Shown: positions 665 through 59,134 of the stretch, one piece after another
Layout of the letters: each line of letters begins with the position of its first letter
Numbering within the stretch: the first letter of the stretch is position 1
Origin: Verrucomicrobiota bacterium
Lineage (GTDB): Bacteria; Verrucomicrobiota; Verrucomicrobiia; Opitutales; UBA953
Direction: 5' to 3'
Length of the DNA stretch: 64,000 bases
NCBI GenBank assembly: GCA_014193315.1
Contig: BJHS01000005.1
Location: 1 to 64,000 of the forward strand
The notes under the pieces: generated by a model
The model's input: only the letters and a program-made list of their open reading frames with translations
What the model was told of the DNA's origin: nothing
Database searches by the model: none
Made by a program: the position numbers and the translations under genes

Positions 665-1537
665 TTAGAAGTGCTTCCTCTTGATCGGGATCTGCTTGAA
701 GCGTTGGGTGAGGTCGGTGAGCGACTGCTCGACCGCCATCCGCTCGAGGCTGGAGGCGCCGACGAAGCCGTCGGTGTCGGTATGCTCGTTGATGAAGGCC
801 GCGTCCTCGGGGGTGTTGATCGGACCGCCATGCGAAAGGAAAATGAGGTCCTGACGCACCGACTTGGCGGCATCGATGATGCCTTGGGTGATCTTGGCGG
901 CCTCCGGCAGGCTCATCGTGGCGTTGGTCACGCCGATCGAGCCCCCGACCGTGGTGCCGACGTGGGCGATGATGACGTCAGCCCCGGCTTCGGCCATCGC
1001 TTTGGCTTCGGCTGGCGAGCCCACGTAGACGATGGTGAACATCTCCATCTTGCGGGCGAGGGCGACGGTTTCGAATTCCTTCTTCACGCTCATGCCCGTC
1101 TCTTCGAGGATTTGGCGAAACTTACCGTCGATGATGGTGTGGGTGGGGAAGTTGTTGATGCCGGAGAAGCCCATGTCCTTCACCTTGCCGAGCCAGTGCC
1201 ACATGCGGCGGCGGGGGTCGGTGGCGTGGACCCCGCAGATGACGGGGATCTCTTCCACGACCGGCAGGACCTCGTATTCGCCGATTTCCATGGCGACGGC
1301 GTTGGCGTCGCCGTAGGCCATCATGCCGGCAGTCGAACCGTGGCCGGCCATGCGGAAGCGGCCCGAGTTATAGACGATCACCAGGTCCGCGCCGCCCCGT
1401 TCGATGAATTTAGCGCTGATGCCAGTGCCGGCCCCGGCGGCGATGATCGCCTTGCCCTTGGACATCGTGTCGCGGAGGCGCTCGATGACTTCGGTGCGGG
1501 TGTAAGGGTTTCCTTTTCCGGTCCAAGGGTTGGGCAT
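665..1537 (-). CDS. TIM-barrel phosphoenolpyruvate hydrolase-family protein
   Basis: This 290-residue protein matches the TIM-barrel family annotated as phosphoenolpyruvate hydrolase-like, which travels with UPF0261. Visible features are an N-terminal AIIAAGAGTGISAKFIERGG strand-loop, a GDANAVAMEIGEYEVLPVV segment and a C-terminal LSHGGPINTPEDAAFI loop, consistent with a (beta/alpha)8 barrel that binds a phosphorylated or carboxylated ligand. There is no signal peptide, so it should be cytoplasmic. It is the first gene of a two-gene leftward operon and is divergent from an AraC-type regulator whose start is only 70 bases away, so that regulator may control it. The actual reaction is not established; the family name is from memory. 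Confidence 0.8.
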   Translation of the reverse strand: MPNPWTGKGNPYTRTEVIERLRDTMSKGKAIIAAGAGTGISAKFIERGGADLVIVYNSGRFRMAGHGSTAGMMAYGDANAVAMEIGEYEVLPVVEEIPVICGVHATDPRRRMWHWLGKVKDMGFSGINNFPTHTIIDGKFRQILEETGMSVKKEFETVALARKMEMFTIVYVGSPAEAKAMAEAGADVIIAHVGTTVGGSIGVTNATMSLPEAAKITQGIIDAAKSVRQDLIFLSHGGPINTPEDAAFINEHTDTDGFVGASSLERMAVEQSLTDLTQRFKQIPIKRKHF

Positions 1538-1607
1538 GGGTGTGTGTTGAGGGAAGGTGGGTAAGGTGAGGGTTGCGCCGCAGGGCGAGGTGGGTTAGGC
1601 AATCCGG

Positions 1608-2525
1608 GTGGCCCGCAAGAGCGAACCAAATCATTCCAGCCAGACGCAACTCCATCTTTCCGAAACGGACATCGAGAACCCGCGGTCGCGTCGCTCCGTT
1701 CTGGTATCGGCCGATTACCAGGACGACCGGGAATGGGTCCGGGGCGCGGGTCGCTGCCGCGAGCTCAGTCTGTTCGAGATCGATCATGTCGGCGTCGGCG
1801 AGATGGTCGCGCCCTACCAGGTCGTGCGCGCGCACCAGAGCGGCGCCTTCTTCATGGCCAGCCTTTCCGGGCAAGGCCAGGTGCTGGTGGACGGGCGCTG
1901 GCGAACCTTGGTCGCCGGGCAGGCTTGCCTGCAGCCGGCGGGGCTCCGCAATTCGTTCCGCATCGGGCGCGGGCGTCGCTGGGATTTTTGCTGGGTGCGC
2001 TTCGCCCCGGGCGTCCGCTCGCGGACCATCTTCCGAGCCAATTCACCGGTGCTCGCCGACTTCGCGGGCGAGCCGTTGTTGGCCGCCATCCGTGGCCTGA
2101 TCGCGGAGCAGAAGGCCGATGGCTTATCGCGCCGGCAGCACCAGTGGGTCGAGTTGATCTACGATTATGTGCGCGGCTTCGCGGGGGGCTTCCGCGGCGA
2201 CGCCCGGATCGAGAGCCTGTGGGACAAGGTCCAGGCCCGGTTGGGCGACCCGTGGGATAGTCAGGCGTTGGCCCGAGAGTCTGGCCTGAGTTTTGAGCAC
2301 CTCCGGCGGCTTTGCCTCAAGGAAATCGGTCGGACCCCGATGAATCACTTGACCCACCTGCGGATCCAACAGGCGATCCGGTTAATCAGCGAGACCGAGG
2401 CCAAACTCGCCGTCATCGCCCAACAGGTCGGTTTCGCCAACGGCAATAGTTTCTCCTCGGCGTTCAAGAAAAGCACCGGATTTACCCCATCGCATTTCCG
2501 CCAAAGCCCTGGTTCGGGGGAATAA
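1608..2525 (+). CDS. AraC family transcriptional regulator
   Basis: The protein has 305 residues from a GTG start at 1608; an in-frame stop 12 bases upstream makes this the longest possible reading. Residues about 60-140 look like a cupin-type AraC sensor domain (AFFMASLSGQGQVLVDGRW). The last 95 residues form the two-helix-turn-helix AraC DNA-binding domain, with ARESGLSFEHLRRL as the first motif and VIAQQVGFANGNSFSSAFKK as the second, ending in the usual GFTPSHFRQS. It is divergent from the TIM-barrel/UPF0261 operon and lies 111 bases before the giant ThuA/dehydrogenase gene, so it could act on either. The effector is probably a sugar or related small molecule by analogy with the family; this is inference. 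Confidence 0.88.
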   Translation: MARKSEPNHSSQTQLHLSETDIENPRSRRSVLVSADYQDDREWVRGAGRCRELSLFEIDHVGVGEMVAPYQVVRAHQSGAFFMASLSGQGQVLVDGRWRTLVAGQACLQPAGLRNSFRIGRGRRWDFCWVRFAPGVRSRTIFRANSPVLADFAGEPLLAAIRGLIAEQKADGLSRRQHQWVELIYDYVRGFAGGFRGDARIESLWDKVQARLGDPWDSQALARESGLSFEHLRRLCLKEIGRTPMNHLTHLRIQQAIRLISETEAKLAVIAQQVGFANGNSFSSAFKKSTGFTPSHFRQSPGSGE

Positions 2526-2636
2526 GCCCTGAATCCTGATCTGGACCCTGGCTGATGTGCGTTTGGGAGTAGGGGGGTTGTAGGTCGATGTATCGCTAAA
2601 TCTTGTAGGGGCGGGGCAGGAGGCTTTGATGAAGCC

Positions 2637-5600
2637 ATGTTACCCCGTCTCAGCCACCTCGTGCGTCTGGCCGCCCTTGGCGCCGTCGCCCTCCTCCCTG
2701 CCGCGCCCCTGAAGGTGCTCGTCGTCAGCGACCAAGATGCGGTCGGCGCTAACCTCGCGGCTTCGCTTGTCCAAGGCGGCGCGGAAGTCCGCCGCGCCAC
2801 GTCCCCGCTGGCCGCTGACTTGAGTCAGGTCGACGTCGCCCTGCTTTATCAGTCCAAGTTCGCCGCCTACGGCGCCGCCGGCCAAAAGGCCCTCGCCGAT
2901 TTCGCGAAGTCCGGCCACGGCTTGGTCGTCGTGCACGGTGCCGTCGCCGGCGCCCCGACCGAGTGGTCCCGCGAGAACCTCGGCGGCGGATGGACCGCCG
3001 ACAGCCAGAAGTTCCGTGCCACCACCATGCTGAATGTCCGCACCGATGCCCACCCGTTGGTCAAGAATCTCTCCACCTTCGACGTCGAAGATGACACGGT
3101 CTACGACCTCGCCCTGAATGATAAGGCTTTCATTCTTTCCGCTTCCTTCACTTCCAAGGTCACCAATGCTCGCCGTAAGGCCGAAGCCGGCCGTGCCTCG
3201 GTGTATGACATTCAGCCGCAATCGTGGGTGCTTGAGGCCGCTGACCATCGCGCCGTGGTGCTGCTCCAGGGCGATCCCGCCACGCTGCGCCATGCCAGCA
3301 TCCACGCTTTCCTGAAGCGCGGGGTGGCCTGGGTTGCCAAGCGCTCCAATGTCGACGAACTTTGCGTTGCGGCCGAGCTCGCGGACTTGCGTTATCCGGT
3401 GGGCGGTCCGCGCCGGCCGGCTGACGCGGTCGCCCAGTTCCGCCTCCAGCCTGGCTTCAAGGCGTCGGCTGTCGTCGCCGAGCCTCTCGTCAATAAGCCC
3501 ATCGCCGTCCAGTGGGACGAGCGTGGCCGCATGTGGATCGCGGAAACGCCTGAATACCCCAATGGCCGCCGCACGCTCAACGCCGAGCCGTGGAAGGAAG
3601 GTGGCGTGCTGGTCCCTGGTCTCTACGACCGCCCAGCCCAGGACAAAATCTCCGTCCTCATCAGCACGAAGGGCGACGGCAACTTCGATAGGAAGCAGAT
3701 TTTCCACGAAGGCCTCGAGTTGATCACCGGTTTCTGCGTCTGGAAAGACGGGGTCATCGTCGTGGCGCAGAAGGGAATCTTCTGGCTCCGTGATACGGAT
3801 GGCGACGGCAAGTCCGATCAGGAAGTCCTCCTCTACGGTGGCTTCACGCCCGGCGACACCCATTTCGTCGCCAACCACTTCATCGTGGCTCCGGATGGTT
3901 GGATCTACGCCTCCAACGGCGGCGGTGGTACCGCGACCAATGCCAAGACCGGCGAGCCGATGGCGCGCCTCTCCTCCGGCACCTTCCGCTTCAAGCCCGA
4001 CGGCTCCGCCATCGAGCAGGTCGCCTCGCAGGGTGGCAATAGCTTCGGCAATGAAGTGACCAGCGACATGGAACTCTATCACGGCAAGGCAACCAACGGT
4101 AACCCGATCCAACACGTCGTCCTCCCTGAGCAGATCCTGGCCAAGGCCCCGGGCACCCCGGCCAAGGCTTTCAAGTCGGTCAATCCGGGCCGCCCTGTCG
4201 CCCGTGCGGACTTGCCTGAGCGGGCCCCGCTGATGCAGATCGACCAAGTGGGTCGCTATTCGGCAGGGTGTGCCGCGACGGTCTATGAAGGGGGTGCCTG
4301 GCCCAAGGAGTATAACGGCACCGTGTGGATGTCCGAGCCCATCCTCGACATCATTCACCACGAGAAGCTCGTCCTCGACGGCGCCGCGTATCAAGGCGAA
4401 CTCGTGCTCGAGAACAAGGAATGGCTGCGCTCGGCCGACCACTGGTTCTGCCCGATCGACCTCTCCTTTGGTCCGGATGGGGCGATGTACATCCTCGACT
4501 TCTACACCCCGGTCGTCGCCCACAACGATACCCGCGGGCCGCAGCACTCCAAGTCTGCCGCCTCCGTGCGCCCCGACCGCGAGCACTACTTCGGGCGCAT
4601 CTACCGTGTCCAGTACGACGCCGCCCCGGTGCTGACGCACCCTGATCTGGTCAAGGCCGACGCTGCCGCGCTGGTCGCCGCCTTCTCCCACCCGAGCAAG
4701 GTCGTCCGCTTCAATGCGATTCGCGTCCTGCTGGACCGTGATGCGTCCACGCAGGCTGCGACCGTCGCCCCGTTGAATGCCTTGCTTACCTCCGGCGGCG
4801 CCGTGGAAGCCCGCATCCAGGCCCTCTGGGCCCTGCAGCGGATGGGTAAGCTCGAAGGCTCCGCCCTGGCTGCCGCGGCGACCTCCCCGGAGGCCGGCCT
4901 CCGGAAGAACGCCTTCCTCGCCGCGGAGTCCGGCAAACTCTCCCTCCCGACCGCCGCCTTCAAGGCGGCGCTTGCCGACGTCGATGGCCGCGTCCGTCTG
5001 GCCGCCCTTCGCGCGATGGGTTCGGCTCCGCTCACGGCCGACGCCGGCCTCATGCTGCTCTCGGCTCAGGCTCAGTTCACCGACGATTGGTCCAAGGCCG
5101 CGGCGACCGCTGCCGCCTCGTCCAACCCGGTGCCGACGCTCGAAGGTCTCCTCGCCGGTGACGCCAGCTCCAAGGAAGTCGTCGAGTTCGCCCGCTCGCT
5201 CGCGGCCGCCGTCGCGACCGCCAATCTTCCCGAAGGCAATGCCCGCGTGCTCGCGGCTGCCGCCAAGGGAGCTAACGTCGCCGTTGCCAAAGTCGTGCTA
5301 CGTGAATTCACGGAACGTCGCACCGCCGCGGTTGCCGACACCCAGTCGCTAAAAGCCTTGCTGGCCTCTTCCGACCTCGAGTTGGCCGCCAGCGCGGCCA
5401 GCCTGGCGGTCCAGTGGAACCAAGTGGCGGCGCTCGGCAATGAACTGACCCCGATCGGGGAACGCCTCGTGCCGGTCCTCGCGGACGGTGCGGCCGCCCC
5501 CGCCGTGCGCCTTCAGGCCGGCCGGACGCTTGCCGCTCTCCGTGACCTTCGTCCGTCCTTCCGCGCCGCGGTCGTCGCCGTCCTGGCCGATAAATCCACG

Positions 5601-7748
5601 CCCGAATCCGTCAGCCTCGCGATCGTCGCCTCCGTGGTGGCCGCTGGTGACGTGCAGGCCGGTCCGCTGCTTGCGGGCGCTCTGGGTAAGTCCACGAGCG
5701 CTCTCCGTCAGTCGCTGTTCGCCGCGCTGCTCAGTCGGGCGGAGTGGGCGCAGCTGATCCTGGCTGAACTCGAAGCCAAGCACATCTCCCCGATGCAGCT
5801 CGGGCCGTTGCAGACCTCGCAGCTGACGCGTCACCCGGATGCGGGCGTCGCTAAGCGCGCCGGCGAGGTGCTGGCCAAGCTCGATGTCGGGTCTAGTCCC
5901 GCCAAGGATGATATCATCAATAAGCTGCGCCCTGAGGTCGAAAAGCCCGGCGACGCCGCCAAGGGCAAGGAGCTCTTCACCTCCGTTTGCGCTACCTGCC
6001 ATAAAGTCGGCGACGTGGGGGTGGAGTTTGGCCCCAACCTCCAAGGAATCGGTGCCCACCCGGCGGCGGAACTCCTCGTCCACATCGTTGACCCGAATCG
6101 TATGGTCGACGACGAGCATCGCACCTGGAACTTCAAGACCAAGGATGGCGCCCAGTACTCCGCTTTGATCGGGAGCGAGAACGCCTCCGTCGTCAAACTG
6201 CGCTTGCCGGCGGGTGCCAGCGTGGAACTGCGTCAAACCGACATCGCCACGCGGACGCGCGTGGAGACTTCCTTGATGCCCGAAGGCTTCGAGGCCCTCG
6301 GGCCCGAAGGTCTCCGTAATATCATCACCTACCTCCGCAGTGTCGCCGTCCCTGTGAATGGCGTCACCGTCGGTAGTTTCCAGCTCCTCGACCTCTCGAC
6401 CGTGATGACGGCCGATACCCGCTGGGGTCTCTACGCCAATCGCGAGACCAAGGGCGACACGTTGCCCTTCGTGAAGTTCGGCCAGGTCACCGCCAACGGG
6501 GTGCCTTACGTCATCCTCGACCCCGCCAAGGCGAAGGATGGAAAAAACGTCATCGTTCTCAAGGGTGGTGCCGGTCGCGCCTACTCCCAGTCCTTCCCGC
6601 AGAGCGTCGAGATTCCGGTCGGGGTCGCCGCCACCCGTCTGCACTTCCTCGGGGCGGTCGGCGGTTGGGCGGGCATCGGCGGCCTCCCGGCCCAGACCGT
6701 CGAAATTCGCTTCGTCGGCGGTCGCAAGCAGGTCGTGACGCATTATGCCGGCCGGGACTTTGCCGATTACTACCCGGATGACCCGGAAGTGCCTGGTTCG
6801 AAGATCGCCCAAGGTTTGGTCAAGAACCACCACGTGCGCACCCTGGTCGTCGCCGTGGATGGTCCTGAGGTGATCGAGAAGGTCGTCTTGACTAGCCCGG
6901 CCAATACCGTCGCGCCGACCACCGTCGCGATCACCGCCGAGATCCGGGGTGCCCCCAATCCCGCTAAGGGTGCCGAACCCGCGCCGAAGCCCCCGGGTAA
7001 AGGTAAGTCCAATGTGCCTGCGGTAAAGGACGGCGATCTCCCGGCCGACAACCCGCGCACCACCGCCCCGACTGGACAGAAGTTCAGCGCCCGCAAGTCC
7101 GGCCAGCTTCGCGTCCTCGTGGCTGGTGCGGGTAGCTCGCACAACTTCCCCAAGTTCTTCCTCGGGACCGACGGTCTGGTTGCCAAGGCCGCCGGCTATG
7201 ACGTCGCCGCGACCCCGAACCTCAAGGAGACCCTCGAGCTCCTTCCACAGGCCGACCTCTTCGTGTTCAGCGGTAACCACGGCCAGTTCGCCACCCCGGA
7301 GTTTCAGAAGGCCATCCGTGACTTCGTTGCGGCAGGGAAGGGCGTCGTTCTCCTGCACGCCGCGACCTGGTATAACTGGCCCCTCGAGACCAAGTACAAC
7401 GACGAGTTCGTCTGCGGCGGCGCCCGCGGCCACGGCCACAGCGACTTCCCGTTCACGGTGACCAAGCCTGCGCACCCCGTCATGGCCGGCGTCCCCGCGA
7501 CTTTCACGGTCAATGACGAGAGCTACAATGTGGAACTCAGCCGCCCAGAGGGCACCGAGGTTCTTGGCACCATCCCGCGCCAGAACCCCAAGCCGGGCCA
7601 GTCGGCTGTCCTGCCTTCCGTCTGGGTCGTCAAGCACCCTCAGGCTCGTATCGTCTGCATCGCCCTCGGGCATGACGAGCACACGCACGACCACGCCGCC
7701 TACCAGAAGTTGTTGCTCAACGCACTGATGTGGGTGAAAGGGAACTGA
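2637..7748 (+). CDS. Secreted multidomain protein: ThuA, PVC-type dehydrogenase, HEAT repeats, cytochrome c, beta domain, ThuA
   Basis: This 1703-residue protein starts with a signal peptide (LVRLAALGAVALLPAAP). Approximate domains are: ThuA-like 22-235; PVC-type membrane-bound dehydrogenase beta-propeller 260-665 (PIAVQWDERGRMWIAETPEY); HEAT-like alpha repeats 670-1085; a cytochrome c module with heme motif CATCH at 1118-1122 and a later SLMPEGFEAL segment supplying a likely axial Met; a beta-rich domain 1240-1438; a proline/lysine linker; and a second ThuA-like domain 1489-1703 with the GNHGQF and HAATWYNWP motifs. ThuA-like domains adopt a glutamine-amidotransferase-like fold and are linked to 3-keto-sugar metabolism. 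A periplasmic sugar or alcohol dehydrogenase passing electrons to heme c is the likely role; the substrate is unknown. Flanking by two ThuA domains is unusual. An AGGAGG lies 14 bases upstream of the start, rather far. Confidence 0.88.
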   Translation: MLPRLSHLVRLAALGAVALLPAAPLKVLVVSDQDAVGANLAASLVQGGAEVRRATSPLAADLSQVDVALLYQSKFAAYGAAGQKALADFAKSGHGLVVVHGAVAGAPTEWSRENLGGGWTADSQKFRATTMLNVRTDAHPLVKNLSTFDVEDDTVYDLALNDKAFILSASFTSKVTNARRKAEAGRASVYDIQPQSWVLEAADHRAVVLLQGDPATLRHASIHAFLKRGVAWVAKRSNVDELCVAAELADLRYPVGGPRRPADAVAQFRLQPGFKASAVVAEPLVNKPIAVQWDERGRMWIAETPEYPNGRRTLNAEPWKEGGVLVPGLYDRPAQDKISVLISTKGDGNFDRKQIFHEGLELITGFCVWKDGVIVVAQKGIFWLRDTDGDGKSDQEVLLYGGFTPGDTHFVANHFIVAPDGWIYASNGGGGTATNAKTGEPMARLSSGTFRFKPDGSAIEQVASQGGNSFGNEVTSDMELYHGKATNGNPIQHVVLPEQILAKAPGTPAKAFKSVNPGRPVARADLPERAPLMQIDQVGRYSAGCAATVYEGGAWPKEYNGTVWMSEPILDIIHHEKLVLDGAAYQGELVLENKEWLRSADHWFCPIDLSFGPDGAMYILDFYTPVVAHNDTRGPQHSKSAASVRPDREHYFGRIYRVQYDAAPVLTHPDLVKADAAALVAAFSHPSKVVRFNAIRVLLDRDASTQAATVAPLNALLTSGGAVEARIQALWALQRMGKLEGSALAAAATSPEAGLRKNAFLAAESGKLSLPTAAFKAALADVDGRVRLAALRAMGSAPLTADAGLMLLSAQAQFTDDWSKAAATAAASSNPVPTLEGLLAGDASSKEVVEFARSLAAAVATANLPEGNARVLAAAAKGANVAVAKVVLREFTERRTAAVADTQSLKALLASSDLELAASAASLAVQWNQVAALGNELTPIGERLVPVLADGAAAPAVRLQAGRTLAALRDLRPSFRAAVVAVLADKSTPESVSLAIVASVVAAGDVQAGPLLAGALGKSTSALRQSLFAALLSRAEWAQLILAELEAKHISPMQLGPLQTSQLTRHPDAGVAKRAGEVLAKLDVGSSPAKDDIINKLRPEVEKPGDAAKGKELFTSVCATCHKVGDVGVEFGPNLQGIGAHPAAELLVHIVDPNRMVDDEHRTWNFKTKDGAQYSALIGSENASVVKLRLPAGASVELRQTDIATRTRVETSLMPEGFEALGPEGLRNIITYLRSVAVPVNGVTVGSFQLLDLSTVMTADTRWGLYANRETKGDTLPFVKFGQVTANGVPYVILDPAKAKDGKNVIVLKGGAGRAYSQSFPQSVEIPVGVAATRLHFLGAVGGWAGIGGLPAQTVEIRFVGGRKQVVTHYAGRDFADYYPDDPEVPGSKIAQGLVKNHHVRTLVVAVDGPEVIEKVVLTSPANTVAPTTVAITAEIRGAPNPAKGAEPAPKPPGKGKSNVPAVKDGDLPADNPRTTAPTGQKFSARKSGQLRVLVAGAGSSHNFPKFFLGTDGLVAKAAGYDVAATPNLKETLELLPQADLFVFSGNHGQFATPEFQKAIRDFVAAGKGVVLLHAATWYNWPLETKYNDEFVCGGARGHGHSDFPFTVTKPAHPVMAGVPATFTVNDESYNVELSRPEGTEVLGTIPRQNPKPGQSAVLPSVWVVKHPQARIVCIALGHDEHTHDHAAYQKLLLNALMWVKGN

Positions 7749-7849
7749 ATAGAGTGCGGAATCGAGTGCAGGATCGATGATGCAACCGACGTACTGCATG
7801 CCTTTCCTAACCGCCAACCGCTAATTCCTCCCCCCTGTCCCCTAATCTT

Positions 7850-8146
7850 ATGGTCTACCATTACGGAACCTTCGTCTTTAATCCCGGCGTATCCCCGGCC
7901 ACTATTGACCGCTGCTTCGCCGAGATGCGCGGCATGGTCGGTAAAATCCCCGGCCTCCTCTCCATGCAGCACGGCGTCTACCAGAGCGACGAAGGCCTGA
8001 ACGATGGTTTCACGCACGGCTTCGTCATGACCTTCGACTCGCCCAAGAGCCGCGATGAATACCTCCCGCACCCCGAGCACGAACGCGTCAAGCTCGTCGT
8101 CGTCCCGAACCTCGCCCGCGTGATGGTCTTTGATTTTACGGTCTGA
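7850..8146 (+). CDS. Dabb family (dimeric alpha/beta barrel) protein
   Basis: This 98-residue protein matches the stress-responsive Dabb ferredoxin-like fold: MVYHYGTFVFNPGVS, a helix (CFAEMRGMVGKIPGL), then the conserved HGFVMTFDSPKSRDEYLPHP and a closing VMVFDF strand. Such proteins form homodimeric barrels; some are enzymes (for example polyketide cyclases), many are uncharacterised. It follows the giant ThuA/dehydrogenase gene by about 100 bases on the same strand and may be co-transcribed. PVC bacteria often place Dabb genes near sugar-oxidation genes, so a role in handling a reactive sugar intermediate is conceivable but unproven. Confidence 0.85.
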   Translation: MVYHYGTFVFNPGVSPATIDRCFAEMRGMVGKIPGLLSMQHGVYQSDEGLNDGFTHGFVMTFDSPKSRDEYLPHPEHERVKLVVVPNLARVMVFDFTV

Positions 8147-8171
8147 GCGGTCAGACAATCTTGCAGCGGAT

Positions 8172-8522
8172 CTAGATGTCCTCGTGCGTCTGGTAGATGG
8201 CGCACAGCCGGTGGTACCCGTCGGCGATGACGACTTTGCCGTGCGCGGTGTCGCGCACGAGCAATAGCGGGGACAGGTGAACCCCTTCCCGGATTTTCTT
8301 CTGACTCTTTTTGACGTGCGAGTTGCTGACGCCGAGCAACGAAAGTTGCGAAGCACGGAAGATGTCCTTGGCCTGAAACTCCACCACTTTCGCCCGGCGG
8401 AGACGGGCGACCAACTTGGCCGCGGTGCGCTCCGGATAAATCAGGCGTAGGTATGAGAGCGCCCGGGGATAATTATCGTCCTCCGAGGTTTTGAGCCAGG
8501 CGATACTTTCGGGTTTGGGCAT
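8172..8522 (-). CDS. Small ParB/sulfiredoxin-fold protein
   Basis: This 116-residue cytoplasmic protein has a C-terminal ParB N-domain-like segment: GVHLSPLLLVRDTAHGKVVIADGYHRLCAIYQ. The DGYHRL motif corresponds to the DGxHR-type phosphate-binding loop of the ParB/Srx superfamily. No DNA-binding helix-turn-helix or linker follows, so it is a stand-alone domain and not a chromosome-partitioning ParB. It is convergent with the Dabb gene (25 bases between stops) and lies just beyond the stop of the ClC gene's operon direction. The function is unknown; nucleotide binding or hydrolysis is plausible from the fold. Confidence 0.75.
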   Translation of the reverse strand: MPKPESIAWLKTSEDDNYPRALSYLRLIYPERTAAKLVARLRRAKVVEFQAKDIFRASQLSLLGVSNSHVKKSQKKIREGVHLSPLLLVRDTAHGKVVIADGYHRLCAIYQTHEDI

Positions 8523-8543
8523 GGTTGAAAAACTAGGGTCGGA

Positions 8544-9749
8544 TCACTCGGAATACAACCCCCGCCGGCCCGCGACGAGCCAGCTGACGGCGCAGGCGAT
8601 GGCGGCGTAGGGGGCGAGTTGCGGGTCGAAGAGTTCGCAGGCCATGACGGTACCGGCGAGGGGGACGGCGCCGGCGCCGGCGAAGACGCCGACGAACCCC
8701 AGCGCGGAGCCGACGGCGACGGGCAGGGTGGTGTAGTCGGCCAAGGCGCTGCCGAGGCATGCACCGATCACGAAAAGAGGCGTCACTTCGCCGCCGCGAA
8801 ACCCCGCGCCGACGCAGATGGCGGTGAGGAGGAACTTTACCACCGGTACCAGGGGGTGCATGGGGTGCTGTGCCGCGTTCTGAGCCAGGTCGAGGCTAAG
8901 TCCGGTGAAGTCACCGAGTCCGCCAAACCAGACTAGGCCGACATAGAGTAACCCGAAGGCGAAGATGGCGCGGTAGGGCGTGCCCAGCAGGCCGAGAGGC
9001 TTCCAGTCTGGGTTAAAGGTCACCCAACGCAGGTAGGCCCGGGCGACCAGGCCGAAGGCCAGGCCAAGCCCCGCCGCCCAGAGGAAGCCGGCAAGCTCCC
9101 ATGAGGGCGGGAGGATGAGTCGGTAGTCACCATGGACGACGCCAAAGACCCGGCGACCGATTTGGTCAGCCCCAAGGGAGCAGAGTAGGCAAAGGGGAAG
9201 TCGGTACCACCAGCCAGCGCGTAGGCGCACAAACTCCAGGGCGAAGACGGCGGCGGCGAAGGGGGTACCAAAGACGGCCCCGAAGCCCGCGCTGACCCCG
9301 CAAAGGAGCAGGGTGCGACGTTCCTCTACCCCAAGCCCCCAAGGACGTCCCAGAAGGTCGGCCAGACCCCCTCCCATCTGCAGGGCGGTGCCTTCTCGGC
9401 CGACGGAAGCTCCCCCGAGGTGGGAGAGGAGGGTGGTGCCGACAATGGCCGGGGCTAGGGCGGAGGGAAGGGGCTCGCTGGGCGAGCGGATTTGAGCGAG
9501 CAAGGTGCGGAGGCCGCCCTGGGCGGCTTTCGCCGGGTTCGCATACAGCCAGGTCATCGCCAGCCCGAGGGCAGGCAGGGTAAACAATAACAAAGGGTGT
9601 GCTTGAAAGAGCGCGAGAACCCAATCGAGGGTATGGACGAAGCCGGCAGCGCCGGCCCCGACGACCAGGCTAAGTCCAGTGCACAAGGCGACCCATCGCA
9701 GGACGGTTCTGGGCATCGAGTGAAGCATCGGAGGGTACCAGAAAACCAT
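8544..9749 (-). CDS. ClC-type voltage-gated chloride channel/transporter
   Basis: The start chosen at 9749 (MVFWYPPMLHS) gives 401 residues and avoids overlap with the divergent gene at 9784; a longer reading to 9953 would overlap it by 170 bases. Several hydrophobic helices are visible, plus the ClC signatures GGASVGREGTALQMGG (the gating glutamate region), GVSAGFGAVFGTPFAAAVFA and GFRGGEVTPLFVIGACLGSA. The usual N-terminal GSGIP selectivity motif is not present, as in a group of short bacterial ClC proteins that lack CBS domains. It should sit in the inner membrane and move chloride or another small anion, probably in exchange for protons given the retained glutamate. That last point is inferred from family knowledge. 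Confidence 0.87.
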   Translation of the reverse strand: MVFWYPPMLHSMPRTVLRWVALCTGLSLVVGAGAAGFVHTLDWVLALFQAHPLLLFTLPALGLAMTWLYANPAKAAQGGLRTLLAQIRSPSEPLPSALAPAIVGTTLLSHLGGASVGREGTALQMGGGLADLLGRPWGLGVEERRTLLLCGVSAGFGAVFGTPFAAAVFALEFVRLRAGWWYRLPLCLLCSLGADQIGRRVFGVVHGDYRLILPPSWELAGFLWAAGLGLAFGLVARAYLRWVTFNPDWKPLGLLGTPYRAIFAFGLLYVGLVWFGGLGDFTGLSLDLAQNAAQHPMHPLVPVVKFLLTAICVGAGFRGGEVTPLFVIGACLGSALADYTTLPVAVGSALGFVGVFAGAGAVPLAGTVMACELFDPQLAPYAAIACAVSWLVAGRRGLYSE

Positions 9750-9783
9750 TGAGACCGCCTCAGGATGGCTACAATCCCAAAGC

Positions 9784-11052
9784 ATGAGCCACCCCCTCCA
9801 CCGTCGCACATTTGTCAACCACGTCGCCTTGGGCGGCCTCGCCCTGGCCGCGGCCCCGTCGATCTTGCACGGACAGTCCGCCCTGCCCGCCAAGGTCAAG
9901 GTCGCCCTCATCGGGTGCGGTGGTCGTGGTTCCGGTGCGTTGGCGCAATTCATCGCCGCCTGTAAACTTCTCGCGATCGAACCGGAAATCGTCGCTTTAG
10001 CTGACGCCTTTGCGGACCGCGTGCAGAAGCTCGGCCAAAGTTACCAGGTGCCCCCGAGCCGACTCTTCACCGGCTACGATACCTACCAGAAGGTCATGGC
10101 GACCGACTGCACGTTCGTCCTGATGGCCACGCCGCCGGCCTTTCGGCCCATCCACTTCGCGGCGGCCGTCGAGGCCGGTAAGCATTGCTTCATCGAGAAA
10201 CCCGTGGCGGTCGATCCCGTCGGCGCTCGCGCCATCATCGCCACCGGTGAAAAGGCCCGGACCAAAGGTTTGGCGGTCGTCGCGGGTACCCAGCGCCGTC
10301 ACGACGGCTCCTATATCAAGAATAAGGCGCTGATTGATGCCGGCGCGATCGGCGCCATCCGCGGTGGGGTCGTGCAGTGGAACGGCACCGTCCCTTGGGT
10401 GCGTCGTCGCGTGGCGGGTGAATCCGATGGCGTTTACATGAACCGCAACTGGGTGAACTTCGCGGAACTCTCGGGCGACCACATCGTCGAGCAGCACATC
10501 CATAACGTCGACGTCGCCATCTGGTTCCTGGGCCGTCCACCCGTCAGCGCCTTGGGCTTCGGTGGCCGCGCCCGTCGTGACTCCGGCAACATGTTCGACT
10601 TCTTCAGCGTCGATTATGACTTCGGTGATGCCGTGCACATCCACAGCCAGTGCCGCCAGATCACCGACACGGCCAGCCGCGTGGGTGAGTTCTTCACCGG
10701 TGCCGAGGGTTCGTGCTACGGCGGCGGCAAGGTCTTCACCAAGAAGGACGTCCAGGTGCCCGACATCAAACTCGATACCGGTGACGCCATGGTGCAGGAA
10801 CACGTCGACCTGATTCGCAGCGCCTTCAACGGCAAGCCGCTCAATGACGCCCGCCAGATCGCCGAGACTAACCTCGCGGTCATCATGGGCCGGATGTCCG
10901 CCTACACCGGCGAACTCGTGCGTTTCGCCGACCTACTGACCAACGACAAGTCGCCGCATTATAACTTCAAGTTCGCCATCGGACCGAAGGATTTCGAAAC
11001 CGGCAACGTCAACCTCCCGGCCGAAGTCCCGCCGATCCCAGGGAAGGCGTGA
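9784..11052 (+). CDS. Tat-exported Gfo/Idh/MocA family oxidoreductase
   Basis: This 422-residue protein has a Tat-type leader (HRRTFVNHVALGGLALAAAP) followed by a Rossmann fold starting KVALIGCGGRGSGALAQF. The HCFIEKPVAVDP segment is the conserved EKP motif that contributes the catalytic lysine of Gfo/Idh/MocA enzymes. The C-terminal half is the alpha/beta substrate domain (QHIHNVDVAIWFLGRPP). Family members oxidise or reduce sugars and inositols with NAD(P); Tat export implies the cofactor is bound before export, as in Zymomonas glucose-fructose oxidoreductase. The substrate cannot be told. It is divergent from the ClC gene and convergent with a DUF1501 gene, across a palindrome-rich spacer. 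Confidence 0.92.
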   Translation: MSHPLHRRTFVNHVALGGLALAAAPSILHGQSALPAKVKVALIGCGGRGSGALAQFIAACKLLAIEPEIVALADAFADRVQKLGQSYQVPPSRLFTGYDTYQKVMATDCTFVLMATPPAFRPIHFAAAVEAGKHCFIEKPVAVDPVGARAIIATGEKARTKGLAVVAGTQRRHDGSYIKNKALIDAGAIGAIRGGVVQWNGTVPWVRRRVAGESDGVYMNRNWVNFAELSGDHIVEQHIHNVDVAIWFLGRPPVSALGFGGRARRDSGNMFDFFSVDYDFGDAVHIHSQCRQITDTASRVGEFFTGAEGSCYGGGKVFTKKDVQVPDIKLDTGDAMVQEHVDLIRSAFNGKPLNDARQIAETNLAVIMGRMSAYTGELVRFADLLTNDKSPHYNFKFAIGPKDFETGNVNLPAEVPPIPGKA

Positions 11053-11185: not shown

Positions 11186-12646
11186 CTAAGTGAGTATCTG
11201 CTTGATCACCTTGGCGGGGACGACGCCGACGAGTTTCTGGTCGAGGCCTTGGTACTTGAAGAGCAACTTGTCGTGGTCGATGCCGAAGCGGTTGAAGATG
11301 GTCGCGTGGAGGTCGCGCACGTGCACGGGGTCTTTCACGACGTTGTACGAGAATTCATCCGTTTCGCCGTGGGTCATGCCGCCCTTGACGCCGGCACCGG
11401 CCATCCACATGCAGAAATTACGGGGGTGGTGGTCGCGGCCGTAGTTGGTCTTGGTGAGCGCGCCTTGCGAGTAAACTGTGCGGCCGAATTCGCCGCCCCA
11501 GACGACTAAGGTGTCATCGAGCATGCCCCGCCGCTTGAGGTCCTGGATGAGCGCCCAGGCGCCTTGGTCGATGTCCTTGCACTGCGACTTGATGTCGTTC
11601 GGTAGGTTGCCGTGCTGATCCCAGCCGCGGTGGAAGATCTGCACGAAGCGGACACCCCGTTCGACGAGGCGGCGGGCCGTGAGGCAGCTATTCGAGAAGG
11701 TCCCACGATCACGGGAGTCCGGACCGTAGAGCTCAAACGTCTCCTTGGATTCCTTGGAGAGGTCCGCGAGCTCCGGCACCGAGGCCTGCATGCGGAAGGC
11801 CATCTCATACTGCTTGAGGCGGGTGGCGGTCTCCGGGTCGCCGACCTGCTGGTAGGTTAACTCGTTGAGCTCATTCAAGCCATCGAGCATCTTGCGACGG
11901 GTCTCGCGGCTGACGCCATCGGGGTCGCGGAGGTAGAGTACGGGATCGCCGGCGGAGCGGAAGGTGACGCCCGAGTGTTGCGTCGGCAAGAAGCCAGCCG
12001 ACCAGAGACGGGCCGAGATGGCCTGCACGTTGGCGCCCGGGTTGGTGTGGCGGGCATGGAGGACGACGAACGCGGGGAGGTCCTCGTTCAGGCTACCGAG
12101 TCCGTAGGAAAGCCAAGAACCCATCGACGCCTTACCCGGCACCATGTTACCGGTGTACGAAAGCATATTGGCAGGCTCATGGTTGATGGCCTCCGTGTTC
12201 ATCGTCTTGATGACGCAAATGTCGTCCGCCATCTTGGCGGTGTAGGGCAGGATATCTGAGATCCAGGTGCCGCCTTGCCCGTATTGTTTGAAGCCAATCG
12301 CCGATGGGGCGACAGGGAAACGGGCTTGTCCAGAGGTCATGCCCGTAATGCGCTGGCCATTGCGGATGGATGGAGGGAGGTCTTCGTTGAAGCGCTTCTC
12401 AAGCTCGGGCTTCGGGTCGAACATCTCGAACTGCGACGGCGCGCCGATCATCGAGAGGTAGATGCAGCGCTTCGCCTTGGCCGGGAAGTGCTGGGCGCCC
12501 GGCAGGCCGGCGGCTTGGGCTTGGCTGGCGAGGGACTTGCCTAGCAGCGACCCGAGGGCAATGCCCCCGAGGCCCATGGCGTTCTGGCGGAAGAACTGTC
12601 GACGGTTTTGGCGGAAGTTATGTTCGACGGGGTCAAAGGGATGCAT
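11186..12646 (-). CDS. DUF1501 domain protein (sulfatase-like), Tat-exported
   Basis: The protein has 486 residues from ATG at 12646 ([11 protein letters not shown]). An upstream reading to 12721 is open but would overlap the preceding gene's 3' end. A Tat motif ([20 protein letters not shown]) is followed by the DUF1501 body, including [38 protein letters not shown] and [12 protein letters not shown], which carry the Asp and His ligands expected of an alkaline-phosphatase-superfamily fold. It follows the DUF1549/DUF1553 cytochrome gene by 7 bases; this pair is a hallmark of Planctomycetes and Verrucomicrobia and often accompanies polysaccharide degradation. No enzymatic activity is established for the family. 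The gene closely resembles the second DUF1501 gene at 23.2-24.7 kb. Confidence 0.92.
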
Positions 12647-12653
12647 GGCTGGA

Positions 12654-15600
12654 TTATTTGTTAAGGGTTTCGTCACGGTTGAACATCTGCGAGCAGACGA
12701 GCGTCCAAGCCGCCACCTCATTGGGCGGTAGCTTGGGGTTGACGGGTTTTTCGCCGGCCTTCAGCAACTTGGCGGCCTCGGTAGGCTTGGCGGCGTAGTC
12801 GGCACGGAAGGCGGCAAGGGACTTGGCGAAGATCTGCTGTTCCTTGGCGGTGGCCGGTCGGGATAGGAGGAGAATGCTAAGCTGGTCGATGCGGGCCGCA
12901 TCCGTGGGGTGCTCCTTGAGGAGCTTTTCAGCGAGGACGCGGGAGGCTTCGACGAACTGGACGTCGTTGAGTAAGTTCAACGATTGCAGCGGGCTGTTGG
13001 ACCGTTCGCGGCGGGTGCAGAAGACCTCGCGGGAGGTCGCGTCGAAATTGAGCATCATGGGATGCGGGGCCGAACGCTTGAGGAACGTATACATCGAACG
13101 GCGGTAGAGCCCTTCGCCCTTATCCGGCGTGTAGAAGCGTGTGTTGCTGCCCGTCATCGCCACGTCGCTCCAGATGTTCTCGGGCTGGTAGGGGCGGGTG
13201 GAGGGACCGCCGACCTTTTGAATCAAGAGGCCCGCGGTGGAGAGGGCGAGGTCACGGACGATTTCGGCATCCACGCGGTAACGCGGCCCGCGCGAGAGCA
13301 GGCGGTTCTTCGGGTCTTTCTCGAGTTTCTGCGGGGTGGTCACGGACGACTGACGGTAGGTCTCGGACAGGACGATCGCGCGGACCATCGCACGCACGTC
13401 CCACTTCTGCGCCACGAACTCCGTGGCGAGCCAGTCGAGCAATTCGGGGTGAGAGGGTTTGTCGCCCATGATGCCGACGTTCTCGGTCGTCTCGGCCAGG
13501 CCCGTGCCCATGAATTGATACCAGAGACGGTTCATGGTGACCCGGGCCGTCATCGGGTTGCGGCCATCGACCAGCCAGCGGGCCAGGTCGAGTCGGTTGG
13601 CAGTCTTACCTTCGATTTTAAGGGGGGGCAGGACGCGGGGCGTACCAGCGTTGATGACCTCGGACGGTTGCGTGTAGTCGCCGCGAATCAGCAGCTTGGC
13701 GGTGGCGGGTGTCGCGTTCTCCTTCATGATGAGCGTCATGGCACCGCGGTTTTTAACCGCGTCGAGTTCGGCCGTGGTGGCCTTGATTTTGGCCACGACG
13801 GATTGGTCGGACTTATCGATGCGACGGTCGTAGTAGCTACGCAGCAGGGCGACGGACGCGGCCGGGGCCTTGGCGCCTTCCTTGCCGACGGCGGCGCGGA
13901 GTTCGGGGACCTTGCCCAAGGTGGCGACGTCCCCGGCTTCAACCAGGGCCGGGATGATATTGGCGGAAGCCAGGACGATACTGGTCGCCCCGGCCTTACT
14001 GCGGGTGCCATAACGGAACGGTACCGCGGTGCGGATGGTCGCGTTGGCGGGGAGGGTATTGCTGTCGACGATGTTCTGCTGTAGGTCGCCATCGATGTAG
14101 AACTTCACGCCGTCGGCCTTGCCCGAACCGTCGTAGGTTACGATGACTTCGACTTCCTTGTTCACCGGGATGACGCCGGCCGAGCGCACCTTGAGTGCCT
14201 GATCGGGCCAGGCCTGGATGATGTGCATGGCGGGGTTGCCGTTCTCAATCCAGAAGTCCCAGCCCCGATAGTTATTGGCCTCATCCATGCGCGCAAGCAC
14301 GGCGCCGTTGACCGTCTTGGTCATCTTCAGGCGGACCTGCACGGCCCAGGCTTGGTTCTTTTCGAAATCACCGAGCGTCGCATGCTCGTAAGCGGAGGAG
14401 CCATCCAGCACGAACCCGCCTTGTTTTTTATTGTAAGCCGGCTTGCCGATTGCTTTGGCCGTCAGCGCAGGGCCGGTCGGCGTCTTAACCGTCAGGGGGG
14501 TTGCGGCGTCGAACTTCCAGCCTGCCGGAAGTTCCTTCGCGACGATGGCGCCTGGGCTAGCCTGAGCCCGCCACGTGGCGAATTCCTTGTCGGCCTTGGC
14601 CTTGCGGGCGGCGTCATCCTTCTTCAAGTTAGCGAGGACGGTGTCGAGTTCCGCTTGTTTGGCGCGGTCCTCGGGACGAGCGACCAACATGGATGGCGGG
14701 TGGTTGGCGTTATTACCGTCGAGCGCCGACATCGAGGTATTCCGGAAGAACGCGGCCATGGCGTAGAATTCCTTTTGGCTGATCGGGTCAAACTTGTGGT
14801 CATGGCAGGCGGCGCAACCGCTGGTCAGTCCCAACCAAACCGCGCCGAGCGTCTCGACCTGATCCTTGGCGTAGTTCGTCATGACCTCTTCGGAGATGGC
14901 GCCGCCTTCGCCGGTCGTGGGCAAGCAACGGTTGTAGCCCGTGGCGACGAGCTGCTCGATGGTGGCATTGGGCAGGAGGTCGCCGCCGATTTGTTCAATG
15001 GTGAAACGGTCAAAAGGCATATTCGCCTTGAAGGCATTGATGACCCAGTCGCGGTAAGGGTAGATATTGCGAACGTTGTCGATATGAATGCCGTGGGTGT
15101 CGGCGTAACGCACGGCATCCAGCCAGTGGCGGGCCATTTGCTCGGCATGCTGATCCGTCTTGAGCAGGCGCTCCGCGGCTTGGGCGTAGGCGTCGGGCGA
15201 AGGGTCCGCTAAGTAGGCGCGTAATTCTGCGGGGGTGGGCGGCAGGCCGGTGAGGTCGAGGTTGAGTCGGCGGAAGAGTCGTTCCTTGGCTTCGGGTCCA
15301 TTCGGCTTCAGGCCGTTCTGGGCGAGGGTGGCGACGATGAAGGCATCGACGGGTGTCTTAGCCCAACCCGTCTTGTCGGCGGGCGGAGTCGGACGCTGGG
15401 GTGGCAGGAAGGACCAGTGCTCTTCATACTTCGCACCTTCGCTGACCCAGCGACGAATCAGTTCGATCTCGGCCGGCTTCGGTTGCTTATGCGTCTCCGG
15501 CGGTGGCATGACCTCATCTGGGTCTTTATTGAGGATGCGCTGAATGAGGGGAGACTTGTCGGCGGCACCCTTGAGGATGACCACGTCACCGCTCTTGGCG

Positions 15601-15782
15601 GGCTGGAAAGCGAACTCCGCACGGTCGAGACGGAGCTTGGACTTGCGCGAGCTACCGTCAGGCCCGTGGCAGTGGTAGCAATACTCGGACAGGATAGGTT
15701 GGATATCGCGATTAAACGAGACGCCGTCGGCGGCCGCGGCGGCCAGCGGAGCCAGCAGGAGCAAAGAAAGTCGGAACGACAT
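12654..15782 (-). CDS. PSCyt1/DUF1549/LamG/DUF1553 protein
   Basis: This 1042-residue secreted protein has a signal peptide ([16 protein letters not shown]). Next is a Planctomycete cytochrome C module with heme motif CYHCH at 35-39 and the [14 protein letters not shown] segment. A DUF1549 domain follows at about 140-350, containing [14 protein letters not shown] and a second heme-like motif CAACH. Residues about 420-615 look like a LamG/concanavalin-type carbohydrate-binding insert. DUF1553 occupies about 720-1010 ([51 protein letters not shown]). It is expected to act in the periplasm as a heme protein partner of the DUF1501 protein encoded 7 bases downstream. Its function is unknown; the LamG insert suggests contact with a polysaccharide. 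Confidence 0.92.
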
Positions 15783-51567: not shown

Positions 51568-53037
51568 ATGTCCAACTACCTCGCCATCGACCTCGGCGCC
51601 GAATCCGGCCGCGTGATCTTCGGTTCCCTCCAAGGCGGCAAGCTCCGCATGAAGGAGGTCCATCGCTTCGCCAACGGCGCCATCACCGCCAACGGTACCC
51701 TTCGCTGGGATATCGTCCGGATCTTCCGGGAAATCCGGGTCGGGCTCGCCAAGGGCGCCAAACTCGGCCCCGTGAAGTCCATCGCTTGCGACTCCTGGGG
51801 CGTCGACTACGTCCTTCTTAAGGGCGACGGCCCGATGCTCTCCCTCCCGTACACCTACCGCGATGAGCGCAGTTTCAAGGCGTTCGAGAAGGCCCAGCAA
51901 AAGTTCTCCCAGCACCAGCTTTTCGAGGGCACGGGGATCGCCTCGATTTCCATCAACACCCTCTACCAGTTGCTGGATGACGTCGAGCAGCGCCCCGAGA
52001 TGCTCCGTTTCGCCGACAAGTTCCTGCTCATCGGCGATTACATCACCTGGCTCCTGACCGGCAAGGCCCGCGCCGAGGAGACCCTGATCTCGGGCAGCCA
52101 GTGCTGGGATACGCGCAAGCGCGACTGGGCCTGGCCGGTGCTGAAGAAGCTCGGCATCCCGACGCACCTATTCCCGAAGCCCATCGCCCCCGGGGTGAAG
52201 CTAGGCAAACTCCGCCCCTACCTAGCGCAGGAGACCGGCTTGGCCAAGTCCGAGGTGGTCACGACCTGCGCCCACGACACCGCCGCGGCGGTCGCCGCCG
52301 TGCCCGCGACCAAGGGCGACGATTGGGCTTACTTATCATCTGGCACCTGGTCGCTGCTCGGCGTCGAGTTACCCCAACCGCTCGTCAATGAGACCGTGCG
52401 GCTGGCCAAGTACACGAATGAGGTCGGCTTCGGCGGTACCTCGCGCTTCCTGAAAAATCTCGTCGGGCTCTGGGTACTTCAGGAATGCCGTCGTGAATGG
52501 ATGGAAAAGGGGGAAGTCTCCGACTACGGTGAGATCACGAAGCTCGCCATGAAGGCGCCCTGCCTCCGCGCCTTCATCCGGCCGGACGATACCCGTTTTG
52601 CCAAGCGTGGCGATATGGTCGCCAAAGTGCAGGCATTTTGCCGCGAGACCAAGCAGCCAATCCCCAAGACTCACGGCGAAATCGCCCGCTGCATCCTCGA
52701 ATCCCTGGCGCTCCTTTACCGCCTCGAGATGGACGCGATGGAGAAACTGACCGATCGAGAGATCAAGGTGCTCCATGTCGTCGGTGGCGGGTGTCGCAAT
52801 GCCTTGCTCAATCAAGCCACCGCCGACGCGACCGGTCGTACGGTCATCGCCGGCCCGGTCGAAGCCACCGCGGCGGGCAATATCTTGGTTCAAGCCATCG
52901 CCATGAAGGAGGTCAAGGACCTCGACGCTGTCCGGGGAATCGTCCGAAAGTCTTTTGAGGTAGTGACTTACAAGCCTAAGGGCGGAGTCCTCTGGGCCCA
53001 GGCATTAGCCAAGTTTAATGGTTTAAAGAAGTCGTAA
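51568..53037 (+). CDS. rhaB: Rhamnulokinase (FGGY family carbohydrate kinase)
   Basis: The protein has 489 residues from ATG at 51568, 23 bases after the aldolase stop. It phosphorylates L-rhamnulose to rhamnulose-1-phosphate. The N-terminal NYLAIDLGAESGRVIFGSL, SIACDSWGVDYVLL, YRDERS and GTGIASISINTLYQL match RhaB rather than glycerol- or xylulokinase. The C-terminal half contains WAYLSSGTWSLLGVE, KNLVGLWVLQECRREW and VLHVVGGGCRNALLNQATAD with a sugar-kinase ATP-binding turn. The next gene starts 43 bases later, the usual order in rhamnose loci. Confidence 0.92.
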   Translation: MSNYLAIDLGAESGRVIFGSLQGGKLRMKEVHRFANGAITANGTLRWDIVRIFREIRVGLAKGAKLGPVKSIACDSWGVDYVLLKGDGPMLSLPYTYRDERSFKAFEKAQQKFSQHQLFEGTGIASISINTLYQLLDDVEQRPEMLRFADKFLLIGDYITWLLTGKARAEETLISGSQCWDTRKRDWAWPVLKKLGIPTHLFPKPIAPGVKLGKLRPYLAQETGLAKSEVVTTCAHDTAAAVAAVPATKGDDWAYLSSGTWSLLGVELPQPLVNETVRLAKYTNEVGFGGTSRFLKNLVGLWVLQECRREWMEKGEVSDYGEITKLAMKAPCLRAFIRPDDTRFAKRGDMVAKVQAFCRETKQPIPKTHGEIARCILESLALLYRLEMDAMEKLTDREIKVLHVVGGGCRNALLNQATADATGRTVIAGPVEATAAGNILVQAIAMKEVKDLDAVRGIVRKSFEVVTYKPKGGVLWAQALAKFNGLKKS

Positions 53038-53080
53038 AACCTTCTAACCCTCCCCTCTCCCCTTTCCAACGAAACGCACC

Positions 53081-55273: not shown

Positions 55274-55277
55274 TCCC

Positions 55278-55710
55278 GTGCGCATCTCCCTCTTCGTCCC
55301 TTGCTTCGTCGACTAACTGCCCCCTCAGGTCGGCTTGGCCGCGGCCACGGTGTTGAAGCGCCTCGGCCACGAGGTGGAGTTCCGCGCGGCGCAGACTTGC
55401 TGCGGGCAACCTTCGTTCAATTCCGGCCAGTCGGACGTCGCCCAGCTCGGTTCCATCTTGGTCTCCAGCGTCAGCTCCGGGGGGCGGTCCCTGTCGATCC
55501 TCCCGCATGTTCATGTCGTCGTGGCGGAAGCGTCGCAGGTCGTCCCGGACCTCGGCTCCGCTCTCGCGCTGGCCAAGGCGCGTCATGGCGACCAGATGCC
55601 CAGTATGTTCTCTTTTCATCACCGGGCCGAGCCGGACCGGGGATATCGAACGGATTCTGGTCCTCGGGGCGCACGGCCCGAAGGAACTTTACCTCGTTTT
55701 AGTGGGTTAA
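55278..55710 (+). pseudogene. lutABC remnant: LutA N-terminus joined to LutC C-terminus by deletion, with a nonsense codon and a frameshift
   Basis: GTG at 55278 opens a reading of LutA (Fe-S oxidoreductase): RISLFVPCFVD, then an in-frame TAA at 55314-55316 where family members have Gln (CAA to TAA). The frame continues with LAAATVLKRLGHEVEFRAAQ and TCCGQPSFNSGQ, the LutA N-terminal region. It then passes without a shift into a LutC (LUD domain) C-terminal third: GSILVSS, SILPHVHVVVAEASQVVPDL. At the T4 run 55613-55616 one extra base shifts the frame; the next frame reads FITGPSRTGDIERILVLGAH and ends LYLVLVG-TAA at 55710, the normal LutC end. The rest of lutA, all of lutB and the first part of lutC (over 2 kb) are missing. 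Confidence 0.85.
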
Positions 55711-59082: not shown

Positions 59083-59134
59083 GTCAGCCGTAAGTTTGAT
59101 TGAACCAGGGGCGCCATTGGGGTGTCCTAGGTCC

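Follow-up and report, generated by a model that had tools for sequence, protein, structure and literature searches.

The protein encoded at the start of the window (the whole 64,000-nucleotide stretch of DNA analyzed here, from a lake bacterium of the class Opitutae) carries a ThuA-fold domain at each end of an electron-transfer chassis and belongs to a widespread Verrucomicrobiota protein family. It is a very large exported protein, probably with an oxidizing function. The two ThuA domains are unequal within the genus: the C-terminal one has the full set of conserved residues, and the N-terminal one has lost part of it. With about even confidence, we read the protein as an oxidoreductase that is secreted to the periplasm and carries its own domain for processing the product, and whose N-terminal ThuA domain would be a pseudoenzyme in this genus. 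This reading draws on the domain content, the folds, the pattern of conservation, residue loss and purifying selection, on gene fission and fusion, and on the exchange of the heme for a cupredoxin in a relative, all of which were observed in the analysis.

Domain organization

The open reading frame (positions 2637 to 7748 including the stop codon, plus strand) starts with ATG, has no internal stops, and encodes 1703 amino acids, exactly as an earlier sequence-only reading had described. The signal peptide, heme c motif, and beta domain listed in that reading are likewise all present, and its PVC-type dehydrogenase corresponds to a DUF7133/TIGR02604 domain. The signal peptide (MLPRLSHLVRLAALGAVALLPAAP, residues 1 to 24, positions 2637 to 2708) was assigned by eye from the sequence. 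It is followed by the degenerate N-terminal ThuA-fold domain (residues 25 to 240, positions 2709 to 3356) and by a beta-propeller-type domain (residues 261 to 661, positions 3417 to 4619), which matches DUF7133 of Pfam with 334 bits over residues 261 to 660 and TIGR02604 with 214 bits over residues 273 to 661, above the cut-off of 122. The HEAT-like helical region (residues 662 to 1095, positions 4620 to 5921) is placed by its position in the chain and by HEAT Pfam matches in 6 of 18 family members. The HEAT repeats claimed previously thus hold by position and by relatives, but Pfam did not call them in the window protein itself.

The c-type heme domain (residues 1103 to 1236, positions 5943 to 6344) matches TIGR02603 over residues 1105 to 1235 with 110 bits, above the cut-off of 68, and contains the CxxCH motif as C1118-A-T-C1121-H1122. 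These two cysteines, H1122, and M1214 are invariant among 18 diverse family members, and M1214 is the probable distal heme ligand. A beta-sandwich-like domain (residues about 1244 to 1437, positions 6366 to 6947), predicted to be all beta over residues of about 1245 to 1435 in the AlphaFold model, and a Pro/Lys-rich linker lead to the C-terminal ThuA domain (residues 1486 to 1703, positions 7092 to 7745). The beta domain showed an unexpected resemblance to the AziU2-U3 complex (8gs1_A, Z score of 15.8, 159 residues aligned). No PSCyt Pfam domain was matched in the protein up to an E value of 1. A second protein of the window (positions 55720 to 59082), proposed earlier as a plain version for comparison, was confirmed to have the propeller and heme domains without ThuA.

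ThuA folds at both ends

The two terminal domains were each scored alone against the ThuA family (PF06283), for which the Pfam gathering cut-off is 33.4 bits. The N-terminal domain reached 54 bits and the C-terminal domain reached 102 bits, both above the cut-off. AlphaFold models were built from alignments of retrieved homologous loci. The model of the N-terminal domain (pLDDT of 77 and pTM of 0.81, with two weak stretches) matched the solved structures 1t0b (Z score of 16.5) and 4e5v (Z score of 15.7), and that of the C-terminal domain, which was part of a 468-residue model with a pLDDT of 81, matched 4e5v (Z score of 21.6) and 1t0b (Z score of 21.0). Class I glutamine amidotransferases, whose broader fold is the same, ranked below the ThuA-like structures in both comparisons. 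No ThuA structure came up when the PDB was searched by sequence with the profile of the N-terminal domain, whose match was revealed by structure comparison alone. Since both models match ThuA-like structures, neither end fails the structural test of ThuA identity, and the ThuA-like domain that had been claimed at each end is borne out twice by Pfam and twice by fold.

Residue loss and selection

In the C-terminal ThuA domain, H1502, H1574, H1599, D1627, E1628, Y1630, H1679, and H1684 are invariant among 18 diverse members, and their conservation suggests that they may be catalytic. A profile-profile alignment matched these positions to those of the N-terminal domain, and residues were tabulated for 26 sequences of the genus, including one more distant sequence (L058). 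The histidine of the GH motif is kept in none of the 26 N-terminal domains, and the glutamate of the DE pair is kept in 2 and lost in 24. The histidine equivalent to H1574 (H100) is kept in 8 of the 26, including the window protein, which also retains H139. At the position of H1599 the genus has no histidine (GGxWTxxS), versus GGxWxHG in several other families. The IH, DE, and GH motifs are all kept in the N-terminal domain of 39 of 60 homologues from other families, as counted by a pattern that some others may escape. The genome of the window also encodes a stand-alone ThuA protein of the N-terminal type (L144, positions 8157 to 8951, minus strand) with the conserved residues intact, which provides a natural control within the genome for the degenerate domain. 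The sequence-only reading had left it to be seen whether active-site residues are kept in one or both ends. The full set stands at the C-terminal end; the idea of two working copies is unsupported in this genus, given the residues lost from the N-terminal end.

Within the genus, conservation is highest in the C-terminal ThuA domain, with a median pairwise identity of 85%, ahead of the propeller at 80% and the heme domain at 76%. The N-terminal ThuA domain (51%) is conserved to about the same extent as the HEAT scaffold (53%). The dN/dS ratios were about 0.11 for the N-terminal and about 0.06 for the C-terminal ThuA domain, estimated from 23 pairs for some of which dS is near saturation, and the N-terminal domain is under purifying selection in the genus. 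The residue loss, the low dN/dS ratio, and the scaffold-like identity together indicate that the N-terminal domain is retained, though probably not as an enzyme. By descent and fold it belongs to PF06283, though it is unlikely to act as an enzyme in this genus.

Distribution of the double-ThuA architecture

The nearest named relatives of the window protein are from Opitutae assemblies and metagenome-assembled genomes (MAGs). A strong orthologue was found in 21 of the 24 other genomes of the genus, and at least seven orthologues run end to end in one frame with about 63% identity or more (range, 63 to 88%). This end-to-end conservation indicates that the double-ThuA layout is not due to chance. 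The orthologue in Opitutae bacterium BS6 (L075, the same gene as G016 C17) is broken into several frames, which may be either real decay or long-read errors.

When the N-terminal profile was run against 384 class genomes, 89 of them gave a match. When 60 matching frames were examined for both domains, the N- and C-terminal ThuA domains were found in a single frame in 54, each from a different genome; in one locus (L128) the C-terminal domain is interrupted by the contig end. With the genome of the window and two others (G000, G019, and G133), both domains stand in one frame in 57 of the 384 sampled class genomes, distributed over 20 families. We rejected the idea that the architecture is unusual, given its presence across these 20 families. 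The sequence-only reading had named a very common architecture as grounds for refutation, and this applies within the class: the double-ThuA layout is a widespread Verrucomicrobiota protein family and not a one-off. Among 115 genomes drawn separately across the phylum, only three full-length frames appeared, all from the window's own class. A Planctomycetota MAG (G491) has the N-terminal half at one contig end and the C-terminal half at the start of another contig (L151 and L155). These are probably one split gene, and contamination of the MAG is possible. The component domains are already known, and their combination is a variant of the PVC-type heme proteins. The family is apparently undescribed: a search covering part of the literature found no paper on this domain combination, and nothing relevant was found on ThuA with cytochrome or PVC proteins.

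Gene fission, fusion, and module exchange

In two Verrucomicrobiota loci (L114 and L130), the C-terminal type of ThuA is a separate gene located directly downstream of a gene for an N-terminal ThuA-DUF7133 protein. A Bacteroidota locus (L082) encodes a ThuA-DUF7133-plastocyanin/azurin protein at positions 4388 to 7927, followed directly by a separate C-type ThuA gene at positions 7931 to 8635. The finding of the same pair both fused and unfused speaks for the two parts working together. No cytochrome domain was found in the Bacteroidota protein, and the blue-copper plastocyanin/azurin domain at its C-terminal end takes the place of the heme. The presence of an unrelated electron carrier in this position suggests that the C-terminal end of the chassis is the electron outlet.

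The 2.36-Mb genome of the window has 23 matches to DUF1080 and 15 to ThuA. Some of its TIGR02604 frames carry one or two DUF1080 domains (for example, contig C1, positions 58122 to 59894 and 1507 to 4683, and contig C4, positions 89785 to 91644), and a further protein of 1419 amino acids (L147, positions 5675 to 9931) has the order ThuA-NPCBM-DUF7133-HEAT-cytochrome with a single ThuA domain. BT2157, a 3-ketotrehalose hydrolase, belongs to DUF1080, as does a protein proposed to hydrolyze 3'-ketolactose in the periplasm (PMC9007349). By analogy, the DUF1080 fusions to the same chassis provide the best support, of an indirect kind, for keto-sugar chemistry. The suggestion that oxidation and product processing are linked in one protein thus gains from the separate and fused ThuA genes and from the DUF1080-fused paralogues, but two working ThuA domains are unsupported.

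Identity of the propeller domain

PQQ was considered as the cofactor and is unsupported: the PQQ glucose/sorbosone dehydrogenase family (PF07995) had no match in the window protein even at an E value of 1, and pqqE had no match in the window's genome, which is 97% complete and might still rely on PQQ uptake. Given these two negative results, the propeller may be a binding domain instead of an oxidizing one. We know of no DUF7133/TIGR02604 member with a tested activity, and a search of the literature for the reaction of ThuA itself found nothing relevant.

Neighboring genes

Immediately upstream of the fusion gene is a gene for an AraC-type regulator (positions 1608 to 2525, plus strand), preceded on the minus strand by a gene for a PF09370 PEP-hydrolase-like TIM barrel (positions 665 to 1537) and a UPF0261 gene that is cut by the contig start (positions 1 to 654). 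The UPF0261 and PF09370 proteins correspond to the N- and C-terminal halves, respectively, of plant Tm-1-like proteins (PMC5028733). All three genes are conserved neighbors. Among genus loci with flanking sequence, PF09370 and AraC adjoin the orthologue almost throughout. UPF0261 is near it in several; for L118 and the window, its identity was verified with Pfam. In other genera and families, PF09370 adjoins the double-ThuA gene in seven loci. The UPF0261/PF09370 pair was absent from the available flanks of about two-thirds of 20 other loci, and in L056/L146 it lies on the opposite side of the gene at a distance of about 7 kb. No sugar degradation gene was found as a conserved neighbor; the conserved ones are the UPF0261/PF09370 pair.

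Elsewhere in the window, a PSCyt1-PSCyt2-LamG-PSD1 protein (positions 12654 to 15782, minus strand) is encoded beside a DUF1501 gene (positions 11186 to 12721, minus strand), a known planctomycete-type pair. Two open reading frames of 756 and 730 amino acids overlap on opposite strands (positions 53015 to 55285, minus strand, and positions 53081 to 55273, plus strand), and the one on the minus strand has no Pfam match.

Proposed function and alternatives

We infer the substrate, the oxidation chemistry, the electron acceptor, the ThuA reaction, and the role of the N-terminal domain as follows. The protein would be exported to the periplasm, where the DUF7133 propeller-type domain may bind and oxidize a small substrate, probably a sugar, a glycoside, or a related polyol. 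The single c-type heme would receive the electrons and deliver them to the respiratory chain, with the scaffold formed by the HEAT-like region together with the beta domain. The C-terminal ThuA domain may be a working enzyme that acts on the oxidized (keto) product, as the DUF1080 3-keto-glycoside hydrolases on the same chassis suggest by analogy. The N-terminal ThuA domain in the window's genus would be a pseudoenzyme retained for a binding or structural role.

Two other readings assign the domains differently. If both ThuA domains were catalytic, they could form a two-step or two-substrate pair. The conserved motifs kept in the N-terminal domain of most other class families (39 of 60 by pattern) suggest that the ancestral protein may have been double active, and the purifying selection on this domain and the retention of H100 and H139 in the window protein are in line with such a pair. 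However, none of the 26 sequences of the genus has the GH histidine and 24 of them lack the DE glutamate, the genus has GGxWTxxS where several other families have GGxWxHG with its histidine, and the conservation of the domain equals that of the scaffold, unlike that of the catalytic parts, which makes a double enzyme quite improbable here. Alternatively, the propeller may not be a dehydrogenase and the protein may be a periplasmic electron conduit that binds carbohydrate, with the heme serving another partner and ThuA acting independently. The lack of a PQQ sugar dehydrogenase match and of pqqE, the lack of a described activity for TIGR02604 proteins, and the unknown function of related cytochrome proteins of freshwater Verrucomicrobia (PMC5615132) all fit a conduit. 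We consider it rather doubtful, however, as the propeller is conserved nearly as well as the C-terminal ThuA domain, a blue-copper domain can replace the heme at the same end, as expected for the outlet of a fused oxidizing domain, and DUF1080 and ThuA modules recur on this chassis.

A reading compatible with oxidation followed by processing is that the protein carries out one step in a pathway set by its neighbors, in which the UPF0261/PF09370 pair, under AraC control, would handle the released product in the cytoplasm. The near-genus-wide adjacency of PF09370 and AraC, with UPF0261 in several loci and PF09370 in seven outside loci, makes this conceivable. We still regard it as somewhat unlikely, given the many loci in which the pair is missing from the flanks or lies at a distance and given that no function in bacteria is established for either protein (PMC5028733). 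The most complete version of the oxidize-then-process reading is tentative, and we doubt that all of its parts hold: a glycoside would be oxidized, electrons would go to heme (or to blue copper in relatives), the keto product would pass to a working ThuA enzyme within one chain, the second ThuA domain would be a binding pseudoenzyme, and the product would enter a Tm-1-like (UPF0261/PF09370) pathway. If this holds, ThuA, DUF7133, and the Tm-1-like pair would gain their first joint function. Freshwater Verrucomicrobia have many large cytochrome proteins of unknown function, and the chassis described here is tied to ThuA by fusion and by adjacent genes. The fission and fusion events, the heme-copper exchange, and the one-sided residue loss make the function testable. 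Periplasmic oxidative sugar breakdown by such cytochrome proteins becomes directly testable, as does the question of which ThuA domain is active.

Comparison with known systems

The fold common to both ends of the protein is that of the ThuA family (PF06283; 1t0b, 4e5v, and 4jqs). Rhizobial ThuA is a stand-alone protein and a partner of the dehydrogenase ThuB. In contrast, the domains of the window protein are fused to an electron-transfer chassis, and the N-terminal copy is degenerate in the genus. The chassis itself is that of the PVC-type heme-binding CxxCH proteins (TIGR02604 and TIGR02603, DUF7133), with the same order of a propeller-type domain, helical repeats, and a single c-type heme, and it passes the NCBI cut-offs; compared to these proteins, the window protein has an extra beta domain, and both of its ends bear an added ThuA domain. 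The PSCyt1-3/PSD proteins of freshwater Verrucomicrobia are also large fused cytochromes, are numerous in organisms of this kind, and have a suspected role with carbohydrates (PMC5615132), but the window protein has no PSCyt or PSD domain.

Domains of the DUF1080 or 3-keto-disaccharide hydrolase family (PF06439; BT2157 and CCNA_01705) occur in the genome of the window as fusions to this chassis, and a role in periplasmic processing of 3-keto sugars from an electron-transferring dehydrogenase has been proposed for them (PMC9007349). DUF1080 differs from ThuA in Pfam family, however, and is absent from the window protein. The lactose 3-dehydrogenase LacABC of Caulobacter with its DUF1080 hydrolase offers a parallel in how the system works, with periplasmic oxidation to a 3-keto sugar followed by hydrolysis (PMC9007349), although there the steps are carried out by separate proteins from other families.
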